Shown here: one piece after another, positions 377 through 11,755 of the stretch
How positions within the stretch are numbered: position 1 is the first letter of the stretch
Layout of the letters: each line of letters begins with the position of its first letter
Source of the DNA: Candidatus Delongbacteria bacterium
Lineage (GTDB): Bacteria; UBA4055
Direction of reading: 5' to 3'
Assembly (NCBI GenBank): GCA_016937995.1
Contig: JAFGVM010000039.1
Span: 1-23,089, forward strand
Length of the DNA stretch: 23,089 nt
Program-made: the position numbers and the translations under genes
The notes under the pieces: model-generated
Told to the model about the DNA's origin: nothing
The model's database searches: none
Seen by the model: the letters and a program-made list of their open reading frames with translations, nothing else

Positions 377-3300
377 ATGTTAAAAAGACTAGGAAAGCTT
401 CTTCTTGTAGCTTTAGTTCTTATCGCATCCGGATTGTACGCTCAAAAGAGTAATTTGATCGAAAAGCGTTACATGGTAGATGAGAACGGAAACAAGATAA
501 CGATGAGAAAAGTTGCAGGTTATCCGCCTGCAGTACTTCCAGTAAGTGATTACACACCACCTAAAACAATGCAAAAAGGTATTTTCTTTGCATTGGACAA
601 TGTTCCGGGATATGATTGGGCATACGGTTGTACAGCGACAGCAACAGCAATGTTAGCAGCATATTACGACCATCACGGTGTTGTTAACGCTTACACCGGT
701 CCTCTTGGACCACTTGCACCTGCGACAAACGCAACATGGAATTCTCAAGCATCTACAACAGGTACTTCAGAAAATCCAATAGCCGGTACAAACAATGGTG
801 TTGACGGAAGAGACAAGAATGGTCACTCTGATGACTATTGGACAAACTACGGTGATGAAGCAACAGATCCGTATTATGGAGCTTGGGCAGAGCACACTTA
901 CTATGAAAATGACACTTATAGCGCTTGTACTGCTGACTACATGGGTACCAACCAGTGGTATAACTGGGAAAACTCTGATGGTAGTACTTCTATCTGGAGT
1001 AGTCCGGGTGGTGTTTATGACTATGTTGGATCTGAAGCTTCAACTCCTGCTTTAAGAGACGGTATCCATGGTCTAAGATTATTTTGGGAAGCTTTAGGTT
1101 ACACAGTTGACTTGAACTACACTAGAACAATCACAGGTTATAACGATCCTGATGATGATCCTGATTTGGGTCCTGCAACTGGTGGATTTACTTTCGAAAT
1201 GTATATGAACGAGATCGATCAGGGTTTACCTGTGATCGTTCAGATCGAAGGTCACTCTATGACAGGTTATGGTTATGATAACACAGATGAATTAAATCCA
1301 AAGGTTATTGTTCGTGATACTTGGAGTTATGATGTTTCAGATACTCATGTTATGCCTTGGGGTGGACTATATTCAAATATGCAGCACTATGCAATTTCAG
1401 TTATCCACTTAGGGACTGAGAGCGGTTGGTTCGCACCGCAGAACGTTTTAGCGTTAAACAACAACAGAACAGTTACTGTTACTTGGGATGACCCTTCAAA
1501 AGGCACAGTAGCTGACATTGAGTACGAAGTTTACAGAGACGACGTATTACAGGCAACTGTTTCTACTGAGTCTTTCCAGGAAGTATTTACTGCTACCGGT
1601 GACGGACTTCACACTTATTACGTAAAAACTGTTTACCCTTCTGTTCCTTATACTACTTTAGCTTCTATGTCTTCTTCAGTTATTGTTTGTGCTTCCGTAA
1701 CTGAATTCCACGATGATTTTGAAAGTGGAGATGGACAGTGGATGTTAAATGACGGATGGGGACTTGATACTGACTATAAGATCAGCGGAACTTATTCATT
1801 ATCAGAAAGCCCTGGCGGAAACTATGTTGATAATACTGACCAATTACCAATGGGTGGATCTGTTGGTGAGATCGCTCCTGGTCTAAACTTTTCAGCAGCA
1901 GCTGATGCGTCTGTGGACTTCTGGTTCAGATATGACATCGAGTTAAGTTTCGACTACATGCACCTACAAACATGTAAAGATGGTATCAACTGGGTTTCAA
2001 TCAAGGTATGGGATGGTGAAACTCCTGCCTGGGCTCAGGAAAATATCAGTTTAGGTCTTTATGCGGGTGAAAGCAATGTTAGGATCAGATTCTTATTCAT
2101 TTCTGACCCTGGTTATAATACTGAAGGTTCTAACATTGATGATATCAATATTATGCCATCAGCAACTGATCTTGCACCGCCTTATGTGTTCTATTCTAAG
2201 GAAAAAGATTATTACGACAACAATCCTGAAGGTTTTGAAATAACTTCAGATATTACTGACTTTACAGGAATCGATTATGCTAGCGTTATTTATAGTGTTA
2301 ACGGTGGCGGAAGTCAATCAGTATCTGCTTGGCAGATTCTTGGTGATACTTATTATTTCACTATTCCTGAACAAACTCCTGGAGATCATGTAGAATTCTG
2401 GTTTGACTGCCAAGATACGGCACCGGCAAGCAACCAAAGTACTTCAGTACATCACGAGTACTACGCCGGTCTACATCAGAAATTTGATGATGGAATCGTA
2501 AGTTACTACTCTGAGCTTGTAACTACTACTGCTCAGTATGATTATGTAGCTCACGCTAACAAATGCTATTCATTCCACGAAGATATCGTTGGTGTTGTTA
2601 TCAGAGGTTATGATGATGTAAGTCAACCGGACGACAACTCGGATATGATGATTCACGTATGGGCTGACAACGGTGGTCTACCTGGTGCTGATGTTATCAC
2701 ACCTTTACAGGTACCTAACCCTGCTACTCTAGCTGAAACTAATAAGTGGGCATATATTGACCTAAGCGGATATCCAGCTTTAACAGACTATACAGGTGAC
2801 TACTACATCGGTATTACTTGTGCAACAGGTGGACCTTCAGATGTAACACGTACTACTTCAGGTGCTCCATCTGAGTATCAAGGTTACGATTATGGAAAAG
2901 CTTATCTTCAGTTATACATGGAGAACGGTTCAGCTTTAACATGGGAAAAAGAGACAGGAACTCTTTATCACGTAAGAGCCGTTACAACTAACTATCAATT
3001 AACTCCTGGTGTTATTGTTGCTAATCCTAATCCTTTGGATGAGTCATTACCTCTTGATGATACAGCTTCTGATAATCTTACACTTACAAATGAAGGTGGA
3101 TTTGATTATACATACAATGCTGTATATGAGTACCTGACATGGCCGGGAATGAAAGCAAAAGCTGATGTTACTGTTGAGTCAAATGACTTTGAATCAGGTC
3201 TTGTTTACGTTAACAACCCTGGTAGTTGGGCTACTGCAACAGGACTTACCGGAACTTGTGCACGTGTTGCTGTTCAAGGGTTACATTACTTAGAATCTGC

Positions 3301-4051
3301 AGCATTTGACGGAACTTTAGCAAGTGTTTTGAGTCTTGACTTTGATCAATCATCTAATGTTAGAACCGGTGGTTATAACGATGTTGAGTATTCTATCGAT
3401 GGTGGAACTAACTGGGTACAAGTTTATCATGCTACTACATCAACAACAGTTAGTCCTCATATCACACTTCCAAACGTAAGTAACAACATGAAGATAAGAT
3501 TCATTGGAAACATCACAAGATCTACAGGTCAAACAGGAAACTGGTTAATTGATAATGTTGTGGTTTACGGACCACAGGCAATTGATTTTGACTGGATGAC
3601 TCTTGACGGTGGAACATCAACTTCAGGTACTGTTACTACTACAGGTAATGATGTTATCGCAGTTGGTTACGATACAAATGGTGCTACTATCGTTGAAGGT
3701 GACTATACTGCAAATATTAACATTACAGCTCCTGGATCAGATCCGGTATCTGTACCTGTTACAATGACTGTTGGACCGATAACAACACAAGATCCAGAAG
3801 TACCCGCAAATGTAGTTACCAGCATTGCAGGTTCTAATCTTGTAATTGATTGGGATGTTTCTGCTTACGCAACAGGATATGATGTTTATTCATCAGATGA
3901 TCCTTACGGAACATTCACATTAGCCGCTTCAGTTGGAACTAATCAGTATACAGTTGCTGCTGATCAGGCTAAACTATTCTATTATATTGTTGCTACAAAT
4001 TCTACAAAATCAACACCAAAAGTAACAGTAAAAGTAGGATCTGCTAGATAA
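377..4051 (+). CDS. Large secreted modular protein with C39-like cysteine peptidase domain
   Basis: This 1224-residue protein starts at ATG 377 behind GGAGGAG (367-373). It has a clear signal peptide (KRLGKLLLVALVLIASGLYAQ), so it is exported. Residues about 65-345 resemble peptidase C39-like domains: Cys85 in WAYGCTATAT, His293 in EGHSMTGYG and Asp314 in VIVRDTW are the likely catalytic set. After this come an Fn3-like domain (about 353-438), a MAM/jelly-roll-like domain (about 442-595, starting DDFESGDG), and an Ig-like domain (about 596-690). A further beta domain lies at about 692-875, a short ASH-like stretch at 876-920, a second jelly-roll-like domain at 935-1065 (again NDFESG), a beta domain at 1071-1134 and a final Fn3 domain (1143-1224). 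The multi-domain layout fits a secreted or surface protease or adhesin. No FlgD-like sorting domain is seen at the C-terminus, unlike the gene before it. Third positions look richer in C than in the neighbours (by eye), as in highly expressed genes. The substrate is unknown. Confidence 0.85.
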   Translation: MLKRLGKLLLVALVLIASGLYAQKSNLIEKRYMVDENGNKITMRKVAGYPPAVLPVSDYTPPKTMQKGIFFALDNVPGYDWAYGCTATATAMLAAYYDHHGVVNAYTGPLGPLAPATNATWNSQASTTGTSENPIAGTNNGVDGRDKNGHSDDYWTNYGDEATDPYYGAWAEHTYYENDTYSACTADYMGTNQWYNWENSDGSTSIWSSPGGVYDYVGSEASTPALRDGIHGLRLFWEALGYTVDLNYTRTITGYNDPDDDPDLGPATGGFTFEMYMNEIDQGLPVIVQIEGHSMTGYGYDNTDELNPKVIVRDTWSYDVSDTHVMPWGGLYSNMQHYAISVIHLGTESGWFAPQNVLALNNNRTVTVTWDDPSKGTVADIEYEVYRDDVLQATVSTESFQEVFTATGDGLHTYYVKTVYPSVPYTTLASMSSSVIVCASVTEFHDDFESGDGQWMLNDGWGLDTDYKISGTYSLSESPGGNYVDNTDQLPMGGSVGEIAPGLNFSAAADASVDFWFRYDIELSFDYMHLQTCKDGINWVSIKVWDGETPAWAQENISLGLYAGESNVRIRFLFISDPGYNTEGSNIDDINIMPSATDLAPPYVFYSKEKDYYDNNPEGFEITSDITDFTGIDYASVIYSVNGGGSQSVSAWQILGDTYYFTIPEQTPGDHVEFWFDCQDTAPASNQSTSVHHEYYAGLHQKFDDGIVSYYSELVTTTAQYDYVAHANKCYSFHEDIVGVVIRGYDDVSQPDDNSDMMIHVWADNGGLPGADVITPLQVPNPATLAETNKWAYIDLSGYPALTDYTGDYYIGITCATGGPSDVTRTTSGAPSEYQGYDYGKAYLQLYMENGSALTWEKETGTLYHVRAVTTNYQLTPGVIVANPNPLDESLPLDDTASDNLTLTNEGGFDYTYNAVYEYLTWPGMKAKADVTVESNDFESGLVYVNNPGSWATATGLTGTCARVAVQGLHYLESAAFDGTLASVLSLDFDQSSNVRTGGYNDVEYSIDGGTNWVQVYHATTSTTVSPHITLPNVSNNMKIRFIGNITRSTGQTGNWLIDNVVVYGPQAIDFDWMTLDGGTSTSGTVTTTGNDVIAVGYDTNGATIVEGDYTANINITAPGSDPVSVPVTMTVGPITTQDPEVPANVVTSIAGSNLVIDWDVSAYATGYDVYSSDDPYGTFTLAASVGTNQYTVAADQAKLFYYIVATNSTKSTPKVTVKVGSAR

Positions 4052-4148: not shown

Positions 4149-4194
4149 TCAGTACAAAGAGAATGATATTAATTAAATGTATATAGGGATGGTC

Positions 4195-5070
4195 ATGAAT
4201 TTAGAATTGTTTAAATCATTAAAGAAAATCTCAATTGTTGTATTTGTCGTTGTATTATTATTTTCATGTACAAAAAATAATGAAAACAACTCAAACGATG
4301 ATAATAATATTGGATCGGAAAGACCTGTAAGAGTAGTATCATGGGACAAATTGAAAGAAAAAGACGGGATTATGTATGAATTCATGAAAAGCGTTCCTTT
4401 CACAGGAAAAAGTGTAAGATACACTGATGACAGCTTATTGTTCCAGGAGAAAAATTATAAACTTGGTAAATTGAACGGTCAGATGATATACAGATATTCT
4501 AATGGACAAAAAGAGTTTGAATTATACTGGTTAAGCGGAAAAAAACATGGTAAGAGCTTTAAGTGGACCAAAGAAGGTCAACTTATAATGGAAGAGAATT
4601 ATCAATATGGGAATTTTCATGGTACCAATAAAGAATGGTATGAAAATGGTCAACTGAAAGCTCAAGTACATTTTAAAGAAGGTAAAAATCACAGAAAAGC
4701 TGAGTACTGGTATATGAACGGTCAAAAAAGTATAGAGCAGAATTATAATATGGGTGAGAAAGACGGAGAAAGCATATACTGGTATGAAAATGGTCAAATG
4801 AAAGGTAGAGGTAAATTTGTAAACGGTATTGTTGATGGCAAGGTCGAAGGATGGTGGGATAACGGTAATAAGCAATACGAAGGATATTATGAAAACGGAA
4901 AAATGAATGGTACATTTTTAAACTGGTACACAGACGGAAAGATAAAATCTGAAGAGAATTTTAAAGATGATATAAAAAATGGTAAATTTATCAAATGGGA
5001 TAAAGAAGGAAACATTACAGAAGAGATACATTATAAAGATGGTAAAGAGACCGAAAGAGTGATCGGTTAA
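4195..5070 (+). CDS. MORN-repeat (YwqK-like) lipoprotein
   Basis: The protein opens with a lipoprotein signal (KKISIVVFVVVLLFSC, lipidated Cys25), so it should be anchored in the inner or outer membrane. The rest, about residues 75-291, is a row of eight or nine MORN-like units of about 23 residues. Each unit carries a G-K/G turn and a WY-NGQ motif (for example EWYENGQLKAQ, YWYENGQMKGR, WWDNGNKQYEG). Databases often label such proteins 'toxin-antitoxin system YwqK family antitoxin', but nothing here indicates a toxin, so I would not use that name. I chose ATG 4195 because AGGG (4185-4188) lies six bases before it. ATG 4177 and ATG 4189 are in frame, and the first would add six residues. The gene has its own promoter and terminator and so is a single unit. 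A scaffold or binding role is likely, but the partner is unknown. Confidence 0.85.
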   Translation: MNLELFKSLKKISIVVFVVVLLFSCTKNNENNSNDDNNIGSERPVRVVSWDKLKEKDGIMYEFMKSVPFTGKSVRYTDDSLLFQEKNYKLGKLNGQMIYRYSNGQKEFELYWLSGKKHGKSFKWTKEGQLIMEENYQYGNFHGTNKEWYENGQLKAQVHFKEGKNHRKAEYWYMNGQKSIEQNYNMGEKDGESIYWYENGQMKGRGKFVNGIVDGKVEGWWDNGNKQYEGYYENGKMNGTFLNWYTDGKIKSEENFKDDIKNGKFIKWDKEGNITEEIHYKDGKETERVIG

Positions 5071-5097
5071 CCTTTTAACTTCATCATCAAATTCAGA

Positions 5098-5123
5098 AGA
5101 GATCACCATGATCTCTTTTTTTT
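5098..5123 (+). terminator. Rho-independent terminator of the MORN lipoprotein gene
   Basis: AGAGATCA (5098-5105) pairs perfectly with TGATCTCT (5109-5116) around CCA, followed by eight T (5116-5123). Confidence 0.93.
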
Positions 5124-5170: not shown

Positions 5171-5202
5171 TGACAACCTTTTTGTATTTTTTTTGTCTAT
5201 AA
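5171..5202 (+). promoter_or_regulatory. Candidate ECF-type promoter before the small ORF
   Basis: TGACAAC (5171-5177), 17 bases, then GTC (5195-5197) followed by TATAA. An AAC-type -35 and a GTC-type -10 are typical of ECF sigma factor promoters. The same motif with exactly the same spacing recurs at 5403-5429 before the sigma gene. A start about seven bases after GTC would give a leader of about 28 bases with the ribosome site at 5219-5225. The link to the neighbouring sigma factor is inference. Confidence 0.5.
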
Positions 5203-5231
5203 ATTGAGAAAAAAAAAGAAAGGAGAAAATC

Positions 5232-5390
5232 ATGTACTGCAACGACTCAAAACATATCAGCGAAATGATAAAAATTAAAAAATTATCAAAAAAAGAAGCA
5301 AAACAATTAGCTGGTATCCATGTAAAGTATGAAATGAATAAGTTTAAGTTCAGGCCTTACTCTTATAATTTCAGCTTTATGCTCAAGTAA
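5232..5390 (+). CDS. Small basic 52-residue protein upstream of the ECF sigma gene
   Basis: An ATG at 5232 with a strong ribosome site AAAGGAG (5219-5225, six-base spacing) opens a 52-codon frame ending TAA at 5390. The product starts MYCNDSKHISEMIKIKKLSK and is Lys-rich in its first half. It is aromatic in its second half (FKFRPYSYNFSFMLK). It has no signal peptide or membrane segment, and I do not recognise the family. An ECF-like promoter motif lies just upstream and another lies between this gene and the sigma gene. It may therefore be a first member of the sigma regulon or a small regulator of it. It could also be a leader peptide. The quality of the ribosome site is the main reason to believe it is translated. 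Confidence 0.6.
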   Translation: MYCNDSKHISEMIKIKKLSKKEAKQLAGIHVKYEMNKFKFRPYSYNFSFMLK

Positions 5391-5402
5391 GTTAATAAAG
5401 AA

Positions 5403-5430
5403 TGACAACTATTCTAGAAAAAAGTTGTCA
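5403..5430 (+). promoter_or_regulatory. Candidate ECF-type promoter / inverted repeat before the sigma gene
   Basis: TGACAAC (5403-5409), 17 bases, then GTC (5427-5429) matches the element at 5171 in motif and spacing and fits autoregulation by the ECF factor. The same bases also form an 8-bp inverted repeat, TGACAACT / AGTTGTCA (5403-5410 / 5423-5430), so an operator or RNA hairpin is a competing reading. Confidence 0.45.
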
Positions 5431-5470
5431 AATGCTTTGAACAGCTGTTTTCCCGGGAGAAATAATAAAA

Positions 5471-6031
5471 ATGATAGTAAGTCAATCGATCGAGAAGGAA
5501 TTAATTAGAAAGGCGAAAGAAGGTAATAATAAAGCTTTCGAAAAACTGATAACAAGGTATGATAGAAGGATAATGGATATGCTGTTGAATATACTTAAAA
5601 ATGAAGCTGATGCTGCTGATGCCTATCAAAATACTTTTATAAAGGTGTATAGAAGCCTTGATAATTTTAAAGGAGATTCTTCTTTCTACACATGGGTTTA
5701 CAGGATAGCATTGAACACAGCATATACACATTACTCCAAAAGACAGAAAGTGGAAGGAGTATTCATGCCGGAGTTGAATGAGGATATTCTGGCAGATGAC
5801 AGTGCAGAAGATGATATATTCGCTGAAAAGGATCCAAGAGAAGTTGTACGTAATGAGTTAGAGCTTCTTTCAGTTCAGCAGAAAAATGTAGTTTATATGA
5901 AGAGTTATGAAGGCAAAAAATTCAGAGAAATAGCCGAGATACTGTCATTGAACGAAGGTACAGTTAAAAAATATTATCATAGAGCTGTACAGAAAATTAA
6001 AAAGAGACTTACTTCAACTAACACTATATAA
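5471..6031 (+). CDS. ECF-type RNA polymerase sigma factor (sigma-70 family)
   Basis: This 186-residue protein directs RNA polymerase to a dedicated promoter set. Region 2 (about residues 8-92) is clear: DAADAYQNTFIKVYRSLDNF is region 2.2-like, and FYTWVYRIALNTAYTHY matches region 2.4, which contacts the -10. Region 4 (about 128-181) carries the helix-turn-helix KFREIAEILSLNEGTVKKYY, which contacts the -35. The linker (about 100-125) is strongly acidic. The length is normal for an ECF factor, and regions 1 and 3 are absent as expected. The start follows GGGAGA (5455-5460). The anti-sigma-like gene follows at once, and envelope genes follow that. This arrangement suggests control by the membrane protein and a regulon that includes its own operon. 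Confidence 0.93.
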   Translation: MIVSQSIEKELIRKAKEGNNKAFEKLITRYDRRIMDMLLNILKNEADAADAYQNTFIKVYRSLDNFKGDSSFYTWVYRIALNTAYTHYSKRQKVEGVFMPELNEDILADDSAEDDIFAEKDPREVVRNELELLSVQQKNVVYMKSYEGKKFREIAEILSLNEGTVKKYYHRAVQKIKKRLTSTNTI

Positions 6032-6042
6032 TGGGTGATAAT

Positions 6043-7011
6043 ATGAAAGATATAAAAGAGAGAATATTCGATCTTGTTTACGATGAAATTGAGGATGAAT
6101 TACAAAAGCGATCTATTCTGGAAGCGATAGGAAGCGATCCTGAGCTAAAAAATTTTTATTTAGAACTGAAAGAAGATGCTGACCTTATAAAAGAGGAAGA
6201 CTTCATATCCTCAGAAAGTAGTTTTTTGGAATCAAACAGATCTCAATTATTCGATAAAATAAAAAATATTGAATTGGTAGATGAACAGGATAAATCAGCT
6301 AATAATGTATTTGATTTTGTAAAACGTGCTAAGTTTAATATCGTGTTAAAATATGCTGCTGTGGTATTATTAACTTTTTATGCTACGATGTATCATTTCA
6401 GCGGTCAAAAACAGCAAGCAGACCAAAGTTCAGGTTATGATAATTTCAACAGCTCATATAATGAGGATCCGAATTTACAGCAGGTTAACTATATTGAAGG
6501 TTCACCGTTCGCTGAAACTGACAGGCAATTGGAAAATTATAGAGTTGATAATCTTGAAATTGACGATAAGGGTGAAGATATTCAGATCGATTTTGACATA
6601 AGTACAAGCAAAACTATAAAGGGTAAAAAGAACGATCCTGTGATTATTAAAACGCTGAAATATTTAATAGCTCATGAAAGTAATCCCGGAGTAAAACTAA
6701 GGACACTTAAAGCAATGGATAAATCCGGTACAAATAAATATGAGGAGACTTTGATAAATACAATGTTGAATGACAAGGATGAGCTTATTAGAAGAAAAGC
6801 TATGAAAATGATATCTAAATCTGAGATGAGTAAAAAAAGTATAGATGCATTGTATAATGTGGTTCTAAATGATCCTGATCAGGTCAATAGAATTGAAGCA
6901 TTGAGCATATTAGAGGAAAAAGATGCTCAATATGCTGATAAAGCTCTTACAAATATGCCTAATGAAGATGATGAATACTTGAAGTACAAAACTACTCTGA
7001 TAAATAAATAA
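6043..7011 (+). CDS. Membrane anti-sigma-like protein with C-terminal HEAT repeats
   Basis: This 322-residue protein directly follows the ECF sigma gene and is probably its anti-sigma factor. The cytoplasmic N-terminus (about 1-95) begins MKDIKERIFDLVYDEIEDEL and continues with SDPELKNFYLELKED, as in many anti-sigma proteins of FCB bacteria. It lacks the HxxxCxxC zinc motif. One membrane segment lies at about 97-118 (NIVLKYAAVVLLTFYATMY). After a low-complexity stretch, residues about 196-320 form HEAT-like helical repeats (for example IKTLKYLIAHESNPGVKLRT, then LIRRKAMKMI and VNRIEALSIL), which would lie in the periplasm. I chose ATG 6043 because GGTGAT lies before it. An in-frame ATG at 6031 overlaps the sigma stop codon. 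The anti-sigma role rests on position and layout, not on a recognised catalytic motif. Confidence 0.75.
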   Translation: MKDIKERIFDLVYDEIEDELQKRSILEAIGSDPELKNFYLELKEDADLIKEEDFISSESSFLESNRSQLFDKIKNIELVDEQDKSANNVFDFVKRAKFNIVLKYAAVVLLTFYATMYHFSGQKQQADQSSGYDNFNSSYNEDPNLQQVNYIEGSPFAETDRQLENYRVDNLEIDDKGEDIQIDFDISTSKTIKGKKNDPVIIKTLKYLIAHESNPGVKLRTLKAMDKSGTNKYEETLINTMLNDKDELIRRKAMKMISKSEMSKKSIDALYNVVLNDPDQVNRIEALSILEEKDAQYADKALTNMPNEDDEYLKYKTTLINK

Positions 7012-7028
7012 TAAGGAAGGTGATAATA

Positions 7029-8345
7029 ATGAAAAACGATAAGATAAAATATATATTGATAATATTGATACTGTTCACTGGATCAAAGCTAATATATGCA
7101 GCTGAAATTGAAAGATATACACTTCCATCAATGAACGGTGTTACTTTATTTGTTCTGAAAGGTGCTAATACAACCAAGCAAATTACCCTGAAAGGTAACG
7201 TATTAAATTTAAACGTAGTCGGTCTTGATAAAACAAAGTTTGAGTTATATACATCCATGGAAGATAATGAGCTTGAAAAACTCAATCAGAAGACATTTAA
7301 AGATATATCAGATAAAATAGAAAAAAAATTAAACACATCAATAAAGCTCAATGAAAATGAGAATGAATTCATCAAAGAACTTAGAGAAATGATGATGGAA
7401 TTCGATATGGTTAAGAAAGAATTCAAGGTTGTAATGTCACTTGAAGATCCTTCTAAGATAGAAAAAAGTATGAAGGATGAATTCAAAGATATTCAAGTAG
7501 AAAAAAAAGGTAATGAGATTGTTATTGACCTGAAAAAAGTAAAGAACAGTCTGCTTTTAGTTCCTGAGGATATATCACTGTTAATTGATATCAATAAGGG
7601 AAGCTTGAATTTACAGAACACGAACGGTGAAATTGTAATTAATGGTATGCAGCTTGAGACCAACATCACAAATGTGTCAGCTGTAATAAACTACAAGAAC
7701 AAATCCGGAGATATTTCTGTCAGCAACTATGAGGGTGTTGCAAACTTAAAGACACTTCAGGGGGATATTAATGTTATTAATTCATCAGGAAAAATGAATT
7801 TCAAAAGTGCTGCCGGAGACATAAACTTCAATAAGTTCATTGGTGATATAGATGTTGATATTCAAGTCGGTGATATAAAAATCCTTAATTCAGAGGATAT
7901 GACACTAAAAGTTGAGAATAAAAGCGGTGATATCGTAGTAAGAAATATTAAAGGTAAAAATATTGAAATAAACACAGCGTCATCAGATATAGGTATTTTT
8001 GATACGAACACAGAAAATATTAAAATATCTAATCTTTCCGGAGATGTATTACTGAATAAAGTTAAATCAGACCTTGAACTTGAAATAAACAGTGGGGATC
8101 TTCTGCTTAAAGACATTGAACCGCTTTTTAAGAAGGATTCAAAGATCGGTCTTAATTTTGGTGATATAGATATAGAACTTTCAGACCCGAAATTATACAA
8201 ATATTTCCAGTCGGTGAATGAAGATGAGATAGACTTTAAAGGTAAACTGAGTATAAATAAAGACCTTAAGATCTGCACTAAAGATAAAAAATGTATTGTG
8301 ATCAGCTTAAATAATGGACAAATCAGTGTAGGCAAAATAAAATAA
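7029..8345 (+). CDS. Exported DUF4097-type beta-solenoid protein
   Basis: This 438-residue protein has an N-terminal signal segment (IKYILIILILFTGSKLIYAA), so it is exported. After a helical, charged insertion (about 75-145), residues about 200-395 are a repeated beta pattern. Units of about 20 residues carry SGD or GDI turns (KSGDISVSNYEG, LQGDINVINSSG, AAGDINFNKFIG, KSGDIVVRNIKG, LSGDVLLN, NSGDLLLKD). This matches the DUF4097 / putative-adhesin beta-strand repeat family, often found beside ECF sigma and anti-sigma genes. The start is ATG 7029, behind AAGGAAGG (7013-7020). A GTG at 7020 is in frame but lies within the ribosome site. It sits in the same operon as the sigma gene (gap 17 bases). 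The function is unknown; a periplasmic scaffold or sensor is inferred. Confidence 0.8.
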   Translation: MKNDKIKYILIILILFTGSKLIYAAEIERYTLPSMNGVTLFVLKGANTTKQITLKGNVLNLNVVGLDKTKFELYTSMEDNELEKLNQKTFKDISDKIEKKLNTSIKLNENENEFIKELREMMMEFDMVKKEFKVVMSLEDPSKIEKSMKDEFKDIQVEKKGNEIVIDLKKVKNSLLLVPEDISLLIDINKGSLNLQNTNGEIVINGMQLETNITNVSAVINYKNKSGDISVSNYEGVANLKTLQGDINVINSSGKMNFKSAAGDINFNKFIGDIDVDIQVGDIKILNSEDMTLKVENKSGDIVVRNIKGKNIEINTASSDIGIFDTNTENIKISNLSGDVLLNKVKSDLELEINSGDLLLKDIEPLFKKDSKIGLNFGDIDIELSDPKLYKYFQSVNEDEIDFKGKLSINKDLKICTKDKKCIVISLNNGQISVGKIK

Positions 8346-8364
8346 TAACTAATGGAGTATTAAA

Positions 8365-9900
8365 ATGAAGATAAAGATGATAATATTAATTTTAATATCA
8401 ATGACATTTTTAAGGTCAGAAACAATTAGAAAATTCTCGGACTTTAGATTGGAAGAGAATGATTCTTTGAAAGCAGATGTTAAAGTTTTCAGAGGTGATG
8501 CAATTATTTATGGATATCTGGATGGTAATCTGGATGTTTATTCAGGAGATATAAAATTATTTAACAACGGAAAGATATCAGGAAAGACCAAAGCTTTTGC
8601 AGGAAAGGTTTATGATAATCATAAAGTTGATGAAAGTTCAAGCTATTATGTAGTGAATGAATTAAAAAATCTTGTCTTGGGAGATGATAGTTTTTATGGA
8701 GATAAAAAAGACAGTGAAATGAAGATAGTAATTGGTGGAGAGAGTTTAACAAAGAGATTACAGGCAGGTAACAGTGAAGAGAAAAGTTTTTATTTTCATA
8801 ATTCAGCAATAAAAAAAGATTTCTTCTCATATTCAAGTGTTGAAGGTGCTTATTTAGGGATACCAGCAAATATTAATTTGATAAATACAAATTATGCTGA
8901 ATTTGATTTTTACGGATCTATCGGATACGGATTTAAATCTGAGGAATGGCAGTATTATACTGACGAGAAACTTTCATTTTACGATAAAATATTCAGTATA
9001 GGTGCTACTCAATATTCAATTGCTGCAAGTGAAGATCAGTGGAAAATCCAGCCTTCAATAAACACGATGTCAGCTTTGTTCATACATGAAGATTTTTTCA
9101 ATTATTATCTAACTGAAGGATTTGGTTTTTATGCAGGAGCAATTTATGAATTGAAAACGGAGAAAACGTTAACACAGTTTGGATTAAAATTGGGTTTCTT
9201 TGAAGATAATATAAGTGAGATGCACAGGGTCAACAATTATTCTTTATTCACAGATGAAAAAGATTTCAGGCAGGTTAGTTTCTATGATGGGAATCTGGCA
9301 GATGAAGGGGTTATTAAGGAGATGCTGTATACAGGTCATGTGATTTCAAAATGGTCTAATCTTAATACGATCGCTGATATCAGTGGTACTTATGAAAGAA
9401 CACTTGATAATCTGGAACAGGATTTTGAATTCCAAAAATTCACAGTAAATTCATTCTTTGAAACTAAGTTTTCAAATATCCTGACTTTTTCAAATAAAAC
9501 AAGACTGGAGTCATGTTCTTTTCTTGATCCTACAGATCCTCATACTACACCAAACTTCAAATATACTACTTTAGGTGGTAACGGTACACTGCCGGGTTAT
9601 AAATTTAATGAGTTTGCGGGTAACAGAGCAATCTTGAACAGATCGATAATCGGATTTGAGGCAATTGATGTACTGGATTTCAGAGCTATATTTGATTTCG
9701 GAGAAGCATACGAATATGCTCCAAACTCTTCCAAAGAAAATCTTCTAGATGGTTTAGATAAATTCAGTACTAATACTTTAAAATCTTCTTTCGGTCTGGG
9801 AATGGCTTTTGATGATAAATTTCTCTTCTCCATTCATAAAAGATTAGATACCAACAAAGATCCATATCAATTGCAATTTTCAGTGATATATAATTATTAA
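8365..9900 (+). CDS. Outer-membrane barrel protein with bactofilin-like N-terminal domain
   Basis: This 511-residue protein has a signal peptide (MKIKMIILILISMTFLRS). Residues about 25-95 have a polymer-forming, bactofilin-like pattern (VFRGDAIIYGYLDGNLDVYS, then GDIKLFNNGKISGKTKAFAG). From about 160 onward the chain is alternating aromatic/polar beta strands ending FSVIYNY, typical of an outer-membrane barrel. GGNGTLPGYKFNEFAGN (about 404-420) followed by LNRSIIGFE resembles the GG-x-x-RGY to G-N signature of Omp85/surface-antigen barrels, with Pro in place of Arg. No POTRA domains are seen. The start follows GGAG (8355-8358). It lies between two DUF4097-type genes in the sigma operon, which suggests that the products work together at the outer membrane. 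The exact activity is unknown. Confidence 0.7.
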   Translation: MKIKMIILILISMTFLRSETIRKFSDFRLEENDSLKADVKVFRGDAIIYGYLDGNLDVYSGDIKLFNNGKISGKTKAFAGKVYDNHKVDESSSYYVVNELKNLVLGDDSFYGDKKDSEMKIVIGGESLTKRLQAGNSEEKSFYFHNSAIKKDFFSYSSVEGAYLGIPANINLINTNYAEFDFYGSIGYGFKSEEWQYYTDEKLSFYDKIFSIGATQYSIAASEDQWKIQPSINTMSALFIHEDFFNYYLTEGFGFYAGAIYELKTEKTLTQFGLKLGFFEDNISEMHRVNNYSLFTDEKDFRQVSFYDGNLADEGVIKEMLYTGHVISKWSNLNTIADISGTYERTLDNLEQDFEFQKFTVNSFFETKFSNILTFSNKTRLESCSFLDPTDPHTTPNFKYTTLGGNGTLPGYKFNEFAGNRAILNRSIIGFEAIDVLDFRAIFDFGEAYEYAPNSSKENLLDGLDKFSTNTLKSSFGLGMAFDDKFLFSIHKRLDTNKDPYQLQFSVIYNY

Positions 9901-9922
9901 TCAGACATTATAGGGGGATATG

Positions 9923-10735
9923 ATGAAAAAGATATTATTAATATTAACAATAGCTTTACTCGTATCAGGATGTATGGATATGTTATATTCAATAAGTGAT
10001 GAAGTTAAAGCTGAGCAAACAACAACAGAATATATTGTACCTCAGGACGGTGCAGTTATTATAGTTGAAAATATTAACGGGAATGTAGATTTTTCAAGAT
10101 CAGTATCCAATAAAATTGAGATCGGGATAAGGAAAACAACTCCGAAAGATGAAGCTGAATTAAAGAAAGCAAAAGTTGTAATTGACGATAATCAGGGAAA
10201 TATCGTTATAAAAACTGAATATTTAGAAAAGAACGTAAAAGTATCGGTCCACTACAGTATTAAACTTCCCGAAAATGCATATTTAGGTTCAGTTGATCTT
10301 GTCAACGGATCGCTTAAAATAGCGGATATAAAAGTGAAGGATGCTGTTTTTGAATGTGTTAACGGTAATATAACTATTACTAAGGTACGAGGTGCGGTTT
10401 CAGCTGAAAGTGTTAATGGTAATATAACTGTAAAAGATACACCTGTTATAAACAGTCTTGAAAGTATGAACGGAAGTATATCTGCTGAAATTATAGATGT
10501 TTCAAATAGAATAGAAATAGAGACCATGAACGGAAATATCAAACTGTATATTTCTGATAAGGAAAATATTTTATTGACTGCTGAAACAACTAACGGGTCA
10601 GTAAATAACACGAATTCTTCTTTGAATGTCGATAAAATAAAAAAAACAAAACTCAAAGGAAGCTTAGGAAATGCAAAATATGATCTTGAAGTAGCTACAA
10701 TGAACGGCAGTATTACTCTCAATGATCTCAACTAA
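9923..10735 (+). CDS. DUF4097-type beta-solenoid lipoprotein
   Basis: This 270-residue protein begins with a lipoprotein signal (MKKILLILTIALLVSGC, lipidated Cys17). Residues about 45-268 are a beta-repeat whose turns carry NGN or NGS about every 20 residues (INGNVDF, VNGSLKI, VNGNITI, VNGNITV, MNGSISA, MNGNIKL, TNGSVN, MNGSITL). This is the DUF4097 family again, but with Asn-Gly turns instead of the Ser-Gly-Asp turns of the other copy at 7029-8345. ATG 9923 is preferred because GGGGG (9913-9917) lies five bases before it. An ATG at 9920 is also in frame. It is the last gene of the sigma operon, followed by a terminator. A lipid-anchored partner of the barrel or solenoid protein is plausible but unproven. 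Confidence 0.82.
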   Translation: MKKILLILTIALLVSGCMDMLYSISDEVKAEQTTTEYIVPQDGAVIIVENINGNVDFSRSVSNKIEIGIRKTTPKDEAELKKAKVVIDDNQGNIVIKTEYLEKNVKVSVHYSIKLPENAYLGSVDLVNGSLKIADIKVKDAVFECVNGNITITKVRGAVSAESVNGNITVKDTPVINSLESMNGSISAEIIDVSNRIEIETMNGNIKLYISDKENILLTAETTNGSVNNTNSSLNVDKIKKTKLKGSLGNAKYDLEVATMNGSITLNDLN

Positions 10736-10761
10736 AAATAATTATTCGGTAAATCTTGTAT

Positions 10762-10785
10762 AGGGAAGTTCTGCTTCCCTTTTTT
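10762..10785 (+). terminator. Rho-independent terminator of the ECF sigma operon
   Basis: AGGGAAG (10762-10768) pairs perfectly with CTTCCCT (10774-10780) around TTCTG and is followed by T to 10785. It marks the end of the operon that starts near 5171. Confidence 0.92.
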
Positions 10786-10864: not shown

Positions 10865-11755
10865 ATGAACATTGTCGAAGAAAAGAAGATATGGAAACTT
10901 GAAAATATCATCAATATCCTTAATCACATCTCTCTTGAGTTAAGTATTACTGCTGCGGAAGCACAACAACTCGGAAGAAGTTTTGGAGCTGTATCGATTG
11001 AAATAAAAAAATTCATAATGATATTCGAAAGAGATGTTTTCGGTAAGGTTAAATTCGAAAATTATGGTTTTGATGAGATTGAAGGTAAAATGAAAGAACT
11101 TGGAAGCATGTTGCGGATATTGGGTACGAATACATTACTGGAAGCAAGAAGATTAAATAATACAAAAGCTTATATTTTGTGTGATGAAATAAGAAAGATC
11201 GGAGAATCAATACAAAATATTCTTGAAATGCCGAAACATAAAAAAAATCTTTCAATGATCGAACCGGATAATTCCTTTAAAGAACCGTTCCCATATTTTG
11301 TTATGAAGATTGGTGGTGTATACTGGGTAGAGAATATGAACTCAGTAATAGAGGTTATTCCTGCAACTAAAAAGATCCTGGAAGATTATCCTATGGGATC
11401 AGGGAAGATGAGCCATCAGATAATGATAAAAGGGATTAAAATACCTGTTATCAATCTGCATGCTGACATGGGGAAAGAAATTGAATTAGGTGGCGAAAGC
11501 AGAATTGTTATCTTAAATCTGGGACATATTTTATACGGTCATTCAAGTTCAGAATTATTCTTTGGTCTATTGGTGGATGAAATTGAATACTGCGGTTTTT
11601 TACAGAAAGGTATTCAGGAAATAGATATCCCTGACGATCTGCCGGAAGATTATATCAGATATTGCTGGAAAGCTAAAGATACTTCGCTTATGTTCTTTAA
11701 TTGGGATAATATTATTAATGAACATGAGATCCGCGACTATAAAAAACTTCAATAA
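10865..11755 (+). CDS. CheW-domain protein with chemoreceptor-tip-like N-terminal helices
   Basis: This 296-residue soluble protein is preceded by AAAAGGAAA. Residues about 143-260 look like a CheW domain, which couples chemoreceptors to the CheA kinase: YFVMKIGGVYWVENMNSVIE, then KGIKIPVINLHADMG, then FFGLLVDEIE. The helical N-terminus (about 10-120) carries two stretches that recall the methyl-accepting receptor tip (consensus IEAARAGE-GxGFAVVAxEIRKLAE). These are AAEAQQLGRSFGAVSIEIKK (30-49) and LLEARRLNNTKAYILCDEIR (91-110). Both are shortened relative to receptors. No membrane segment or other chemotaxis gene is present in the window. The protein might be an adaptor that mimics a receptor tip, or a signalling protein outside chemotaxis. 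The CheW call is good; the receptor-like call is moderate. Confidence 0.72.
   Translation: MNIVEEKKIWKLENIINILNHISLELSITAAEAQQLGRSFGAVSIEIKKFIMIFERDVFGKVKFENYGFDEIEGKMKELGSMLRILGTNTLLEARRLNNTKAYILCDEIRKIGESIQNILEMPKHKKNLSMIEPDNSFKEPFPYFVMKIGGVYWVENMNSVIEVIPATKKILEDYPMGSGKMSHQIMIKGIKIPVINLHADMGKEIELGGESRIVILNLGHILYGHSSSELFFGLLVDEIEYCGFLQKGIQEIDIPDDLPEDYIRYCWKAKDTSLMFFNWDNIINEHEIRDYKKLQ

Follow-up and report, generated by a model that had tools for sequence, protein, structure and literature searches.

A conserved ECF sigma factor operon of Delongbacteria, a candidate envelope stress system with DUF4097 (Toastrack) solenoids and a bactofilin-like Omp85 barrel

What kind of system is encoded when an extracytoplasmic function (ECF) sigma factor shares an operon with a putative anti-sigma factor, two DUF4097 (Toastrack) beta-solenoid proteins and an outer-membrane barrel? 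The question is raised by a stretch of 23,089 nucleotides, hereafter the window, from a Candidatus Delongbacteria bacterium with a genome of 2.75 Mb (GenBank assembly GCA_016937995.1, contig JAFGVM010000039.1). Window positions 5171–10780 form a single operon of six plus-strand genes with a terminator on each side, and we consider it fairly probable that they encode an ECF sigma system that controls its own expression and responds to envelope stress. The features of the operon and its boundaries are:

5095–5119, plus strand: upstream terminator, an 11-pair stem followed by a T run, which ends a MORN-repeat gene and marks the left operon boundary
5171–5197, plus strand: P1, ECF-type promoter TGACAAC-N17-GTC(TATAA) 5' of the small protein gene; the same element stands at the equivalent position in loci L020 and L021
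5232–5390, plus strand: gene for a protein of 52 residues, with 73–75% identity in L020 and L021
5403–5429, plus strand: P2, ECF-type promoter TGACAAC-N17-GTC directly 5' of the sigma gene, present in L021 too
5471–6031, plus strand: ECF sigma factor of 186 residues (sigma2 and sigma4), assigned from Pfam matches and orthologs
6031–7011, plus strand: putative anti-sigma factor with a HEAT domain, assigned from a HEAT_2 match above cut-off, zf-HC2 in homologs, the structure model and adjacency to the sigma gene
7020–8345, plus strand: DUF4097 (Toastrack) beta-solenoid 1 (74.1 bits; cut-off 22.9)
8365–9900, plus strand: Omp85-superfamily outer-membrane barrel with an N-terminal bactofilin-like beta-helix, assigned from Pfam matches of homologs and fold matches of the model
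9920–10735, plus strand: DUF4097 (Toastrack) beta-solenoid 2 (50.9 bits), with a lipoprotein-site match (LPAM_1, 20.8 bits); a lipoprotein in its own genus
10762–10780, plus strand: intrinsic terminator, an 8-pair stem with a TTTTT tail, the right operon boundary

An earlier note, made from the sequence alone, had listed the small protein, the ECF sigma factor, an anti-sigma-like protein, the DUF4097 proteins and the barrel, lying in one direction and closed by a single terminator. All of these parts are found where that note had placed them, and the terminator at 10762–10780 closes the operon, the second one belonging to the upstream gene; the two ECF-type promoters, which the note did not name, are added here. 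The ends of P2 form an inverted repeat (TGACAAC/GTTGTCA). The sigma stop codon overlaps the first possible anti-sigma start (TAATG, 6029–6033), the likely start being the one at 6043, which orthologs favour; orthologs also suggest that the first DUF4097 protein probably begins at 7029 rather than at the GTG at 7020.

The gene order is conserved in relatives. Across the phylum, represented by 13 genomes in the comparison, every contig of sufficient length has sigma, anti-sigma, DUF4097 and barrel genes in this order (10 genomes besides that of the window, some with short contigs), with sigma orthologs sharing 55–77% identity. A second DUF4097 gene follows the barrel in genera g1, g3, and g6, and an unrelated gene stands there in g4 and g5; since the flanking genes vary between genera, the block appears to be kept as a unit, and the conserved order in relatives takes the operon far beyond chance. 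The neighbourhood, whose absence from relatives the earlier note had named as a result that would speak against it, is also kept in a KSB1 genome, where the sigma factor is 33% identical and the locus reads barrel, sigma, anti-sigma, DUF4097, DUF4097, barrel. Here, two barrels of this family (L030:2958–4715 and 8500–10032) flank the sigma/anti-sigma/DUF4097 block, and another DUF4097 gene lies downstream. Barrel orthologs occur in 11 of the 13 Delongbacteria genomes, that of the window included; they were found by an alignment search of the genome contigs, a single-sequence search with the barrel giving none. Barrel and anti-sigma are both missing from G003 and G008, and G008, which is 95% complete, has neither a sigma ortholog nor a match to the promoter motif.

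The predicted core of sigma factor, HEAT-domain anti-sigma factor and DUF4097 protein recurs in two phyla beyond Delongbacteria and KSB1. The anti-sigma family is present in 80 of 199 genomes of the phylum to which G340 belongs and in 45 of 82 of that of G057, and in 58 annotated distant loci the sigma gene lies directly 5' of the anti-sigma gene in 52 and a DUF4097 gene directly 3' in 56, some of the exceptions being loci cut short.

The promoter is conserved along with the genes. TGACAAC-N17-GTC (N18 in G007) stands 5' of sigma in KSB1 and in every Delongbacteria locus except L020, where the only remaining copy precedes the small gene; genera other than that of the window have a single promoter, directly before sigma. 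Of 52 upstream regions from the two distant phyla, 47 contain TG[AC][AC]AAC-N17/18-GTC; the mean for shuffled sequences or a first-order Markov model is 0.4–0.5, and the reversed string gives 0. At the level of sequence conservation, this is strong evidence for positive autoregulation. Because of this conserved autoregulatory promoter, it is very probable that the sigma factor has the solenoids and the barrel among its outputs, as proposed in the earlier note, which had suggested them as a possible signal source as well.

Copies of the motif are also found away from the operon. The tight version TGACAACYTT-N14/15-GTC gives 31 matches in the 13 Delongbacteria genomes against 4 for the reversed pattern; 13 of the 31 are in the sigma operon and 18 elsewhere, 16 of these within about 75 nt 5' of a start codon, mostly of envelope genes from families that recur, and 2 inside genes. 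The candidate regulon, whose families by Pfam are Peptidase_S49, PspC, ABC_tran, Peptidase_M1, and 6-bladed propeller, comprises PspC (G003, G009, G010, G012, and the genome of the window via a variant), the only component of the Psp system seen in it; a peptidase of the S49/SppA type that is extended at its N-terminus (G000, G001, G002, and G006 too); an ABC ATPase (G006, G010, G011, G012), behind which G006 and G010 have a gene for a protein of 1184 residues (L210:4063–7614 and L211:5311–8862), the G006 copy matching ABC-2 and M1 peptidase; a six-bladed propeller lipoprotein (G000, G001, G009, G011, and also G002 and G010); and a protein of 171 residues (G004). With the motif before dispersed envelope genes, the system is not self-contained, contrary to what had been suggested for it. 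A tight pattern has 26 matches, versus 0 for the control, in a second phylum (13 genomes), and precedes, besides sigma, DUF5916, DUF4097, and Yip1 genes among others; since DUF5916 lies behind the motif in Delongbacteria G007 too, some regulon members may be common to both phyla.

The sigma factor matches Sigma70_r2 (PF04542; E 4e-15, 55.7 bits) and Sigma70_r4_2 (PF08281; E 3e-13, 49.8 bits), both above their cut-offs and the only domains in the protein, as is required of an ECF sigma factor, and it has what appears to be its own promoter, with AAC in the −35 and a GTC-type −10 element. Against the RpoE equivalog TIGR02939 it scores 108, below the cut-off of 236 bits. Just 5' of its start codon, at window positions 5451–5463, CCCGGGAGAA or a near copy is found in genera g1, g4, and g5, conserved beyond the needs of an ordinary ribosome-binding site. 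In g4 and g5, a leader of about 110 nt before sigma (L023:10794–10901, L024:12648–12758, L027:1482–1592, and others) has a mean column identity of 85% between the genera; a structured leader RNA was considered for it and dropped, there being no Rfam match and no compensatory pair or covariation. The 52-residue protein gene was seen only in the genus of the window (three genomes) and is coding: between the window and G001, synonymous differences (pS) stand at 0.75 and nonsynonymous ones (pN) at 0.14, changes falling mostly at third positions, and over the comparisons against the window pS ranges from 0.75 to 0.93 with pN at 0.14.

The adjacent HEAT protein is predicted to have a single membrane helix, with the HEAT domain outside and the N-terminal domain in the cytoplasm. 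The HEAT domain (residues ~203–325; HEAT_2 33.0 bits, cut-off 27.7) is modelled with block-mean predicted local distance difference test (pLDDT) values of 79–91 over residues 221–310; helices at 2–78 and 99–124 are of mixed confidence, and the low-confidence helix 99–124 coincides with the sole hydrophobic stretch of the protein. Fold matches of the HEAT model have Z up to 12.8, values that helical repeats can attain through their common arrangement, so the HEAT call rests on Pfam. Gene position and family suggest that the protein inhibits the sigma factor. A zf-HC2 domain is found in 2 of 10 members of the family (best 3.9e-8), the window protein having no match, and the HxxxCxxC zinc motif, absent from the window protein, is present in KSB1 and in 32 of 58 distant homologs; the KSB1 ortholog retains zinc-finger-type cysteines that were lost in Delongbacteria. 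Class I membrane anti-sigma factors have HxxxCxxC in about half of the known members, so that it is not obligatory (PMC7406223).

The two solenoid proteins both pass the cut-off for DUF4097 (PF13349). By inspection, the first has a signal peptide and would be exported, and its C-terminal pair of cysteines is kept in three genera; the second passes LPAM_1, as listed above. Scores against the LiaG and LiaX NCBIfam models (60 and 58 bits) are below the cut-offs of 285 and 350, and in a Pfam scan neither of the DUF4097 proteins showed a two-partner secretion (TPS) domain.

The remaining envelope protein combines a barrel of Omp85 type with an N-terminal, bactofilin-like beta-helix in the place where BamA, TamA, and TpsB carry POTRA domains, in line with the bactofilin-like/barrel fusion named in the earlier note. 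A Pfam scan of the window protein alone gave no match; among nine aligned homologs, seven match Bactofilin (PF04519) at E ≤ 1 (best 8.3e-5), and some match Omp85, ShlB or DUF5686, one of them Omp85 (PF01103) at 4e-11. No POTRA domain was detected by Pfam in the window barrel or in the aligned homologs. The AlphaFold model, of moderate confidence (mean pLDDT 59.7), has a beta-helix at residues ~19–90 and a C-terminal barrel, and fits Sam50 (Z 21.4, root-mean-square deviation (rmsd) 3.6 over 304 residues), BamA (Z 19.5, rmsd 4.1 over 286) and TamA (Z 18.9); the comparison with solved folds informs on the barrel part only, the barrel matches having filled the list ahead of the N-terminal part. 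The barrel has an LGGxGTLPGY stretch resembling the Omp85 L6 motif. Bactofilin-barrel genes adjoin DUF4097 genes without a nearby sigma factor of this family in L101, L103, L105, L106, L107, L141, and L143, which indicates that barrel and solenoids probably work together.

From the operon, its conservation, its promoter and its candidate regulon, all read from sequence, we infer the anti-sigma action, topology, release step and stress signal of an envelope stress system as follows. The N-terminal cytoplasmic domain of the anti-sigma factor would tether sigma to the inner membrane, the HEAT domain of the anti-sigma factor facing the periplasm; a disturbance of the envelope would inactivate the anti-sigma factor and free the sigma factor, which would then transcribe its own operon from the TGACAAC-N17-GTC promoters, as positive feedback, together with the dispersed regulon of PspC, SppA-type peptidase, propeller lipoprotein, and ABC ATPase with its membrane partner containing an M1 peptidase domain. 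The exported DUF4097 solenoids and the bactofilin-Omp85 barrel would serve as envelope-protective or assembly proteins. Since the DUF4097-1 gene lies directly behind the anti-sigma gene in nearly all relatives, its product, if it takes part in signalling, would most likely dock on the HEAT domain and tune release, in the place that RseB holds in E. coli; such an RseB-like role, which is suggested by analogy, we put forward tentatively. An unlikely elaboration is a periplasmic gate formed by the Toastrack solenoid on the HEAT domain. The bactofilin-Omp85 barrel, which would represent a new subfamily of Omp85 whose periplasmic part is bactofilin-like, would recruit the solenoid away from the HEAT domain whenever envelope assembly calls for it, and transcription would thereby report how far a solenoid structure has been assembled.

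Several observations weigh against an autoregulated envelope stress system. The genome of the window holds two further matches to the sigma profile, and the same motif could be read by another ECF paralog; the loose motif is not enriched in that genome (8 matches versus 15 in controls), and the TGACAAC-GTCTA version only weakly so (30 versus 18), neither count being used as main evidence. G003, which is 82% complete, has the PspC promoter and no detected sigma ortholog. The window anti-sigma factor is without zinc ligands, its N-terminal domain and membrane helix being modelled at low to middling confidence. The lack of enrichment, and the many promoter-like matches that AT-rich DNA yields, would also fit a chance clustering of separate genes with a coincidental motif, which is hardly credible: it is already refuted by the conserved order across the phylum and beyond, and by a promoter in 47 of 52 regions where about 0.4 would be expected.

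More serious is the view that the sigma system is as described, with the envelope proteins of the operon as pure outputs, the HEAT domain sensing something else (misfolded outer-membrane proteins or a small ligand) and DUF4097-1 standing outside signalling. The output role follows from the autoregulatory promoter, and in the second phylum the motif also precedes DUF4097 genes that lie apart from sigma (L308, identified by Pfam, and L319, by eye); the position of DUF4097 directly 3' of the anti-sigma gene in 56 of 58 distant loci, however, is tighter than an ordinary regulon member needs, and we regard this view as possible rather than probable. Alternatively, barrel and DUF4097 proteins might be partners in export or surface assembly, much as in two-partner secretion, with an Omp85/ShlB-type barrel bringing beta-helical proteins to the surface and the sigma factor setting the dose. 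That the barrel homologs match ShlB as well as Omp85, and that such barrels lie beside DUF4097 in several lineages without this sigma factor, keeps a secretion-like role a live rival; the failure to detect POTRA or TPS domains by Pfam, and the distant loci, which pair DUF4097 with sigma and anti-sigma and in which no barrel is seen within ~1.5 kb, make it rather improbable. We thus retain the envelope stress reading, and with it the envelope-directed sigma/anti-sigma locus of the earlier note.

In the RpoE-RseA-RseB locus of E. coli, the sigma gene is followed by that of an adjacent membrane anti-sigma factor and, third, by that of an exported protein. The operon described here is alike in its ECF sigma factor, predicted to be autoregulated, its neighbouring putative membrane anti-sigma factor and its third gene for a probably exported protein, and differs in having a HEAT domain for the periplasmic tail of RseA and a DUF4097 solenoid for RseB. 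Both have AAC-type −35 elements, GGAACTT for RpoE (PMC8103513) and TGACAAC here. In B. subtilis, sigma-W controls sppA, yvlABCD, ythPQ, and pspA (PMC3498285), likewise an ECF regulon in which an SppA peptidase comes together with PspC and Toastrack proteins and ABC transporters, and its −35 element ATTGAAACCTTT is close to TGACAACYTTTT (PMC3498285, PMC8103513). Unlike in sigma-W, the Toastrack protein is here inside the sigma operon and would be exported, and neither the outer-membrane barrel nor the HEAT anti-sigma factor has an equivalent there; convergence may account for the likeness of the regulons. Lia/Psp systems (LiaF, LiaG, LiaX) share the DUF4097 part of Toastrack, often with PspC, and at the distant locus L200 a Toast_rack_N plus LiaF-like_C protein adjoins DUF4097-1. 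A link of Toastrack to a sigma factor has been mentioned, and Toastrack has been predicted to be intracellular (PMC11237479); contrary to this prediction, signal peptide and lipobox place the DUF4097 proteins here outside the cytoplasm, and control would lie with an ECF sigma factor instead of LiaRS. Together, the genes for PspC, SppA, an ABC transporter, Toastrack proteins and an outer-membrane barrel point to damage control of membrane and outer envelope, as in sigma-W and Toastrack-linked Psp, and the best reading, by analogy, is an output resembling the SigW and Lia/Psp responses of B. subtilis.

Each part comes from a known family, and ECF envelope-stress systems are well known; the barrel, for its part, has the fold of the Omp85 superfamily (BamA, TamA, Sam50; Z 19–21). 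In agreement with the earlier note, which did not recognise the combination as described, the literature searched gave no account of the combination, the HEAT anti-sigma factor, the architecture of the barrel or a promoter shared across phyla, the published ECF classification, in which the sigma group may already be numbered, lying outside its coverage. No mention of Omp85 and bactofilin together was found there either; the parts consulted of the 2014 survey of the superfamily describe noNterm, WD40-Omp85, and other architectures, and a bactofilin-like N-terminus is not among the non-POTRA ones named in them (PMC4104836). For an uncultured phylum, the operon provides a concrete promoter and regulon candidate for an envelope stress response, the core of which is retained with nearly the same promoter in two further phyla, and a setting for a direct test of the role of DUF4097 (Toastrack).

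Finally, other genes border on the operon. PADLOC (anti-phage defence) gave no matches among the five proteins scanned. On the 5' side, a MORN-repeat lipoprotein (4177–5070) adjoins the operon and retains this position in G001 and G002; before it, at 377–4051, lies a secreted multidomain protein of 1224 residues with weak MAM, CBM56, and reelin-like matches, 77% conserved in G002. On the 3' side, a protein with a C-terminal CheW-like domain and no family assigned to its N-terminal half (10865–11755) has 91% identity in G002, where it is a neighbour of the operon as well.

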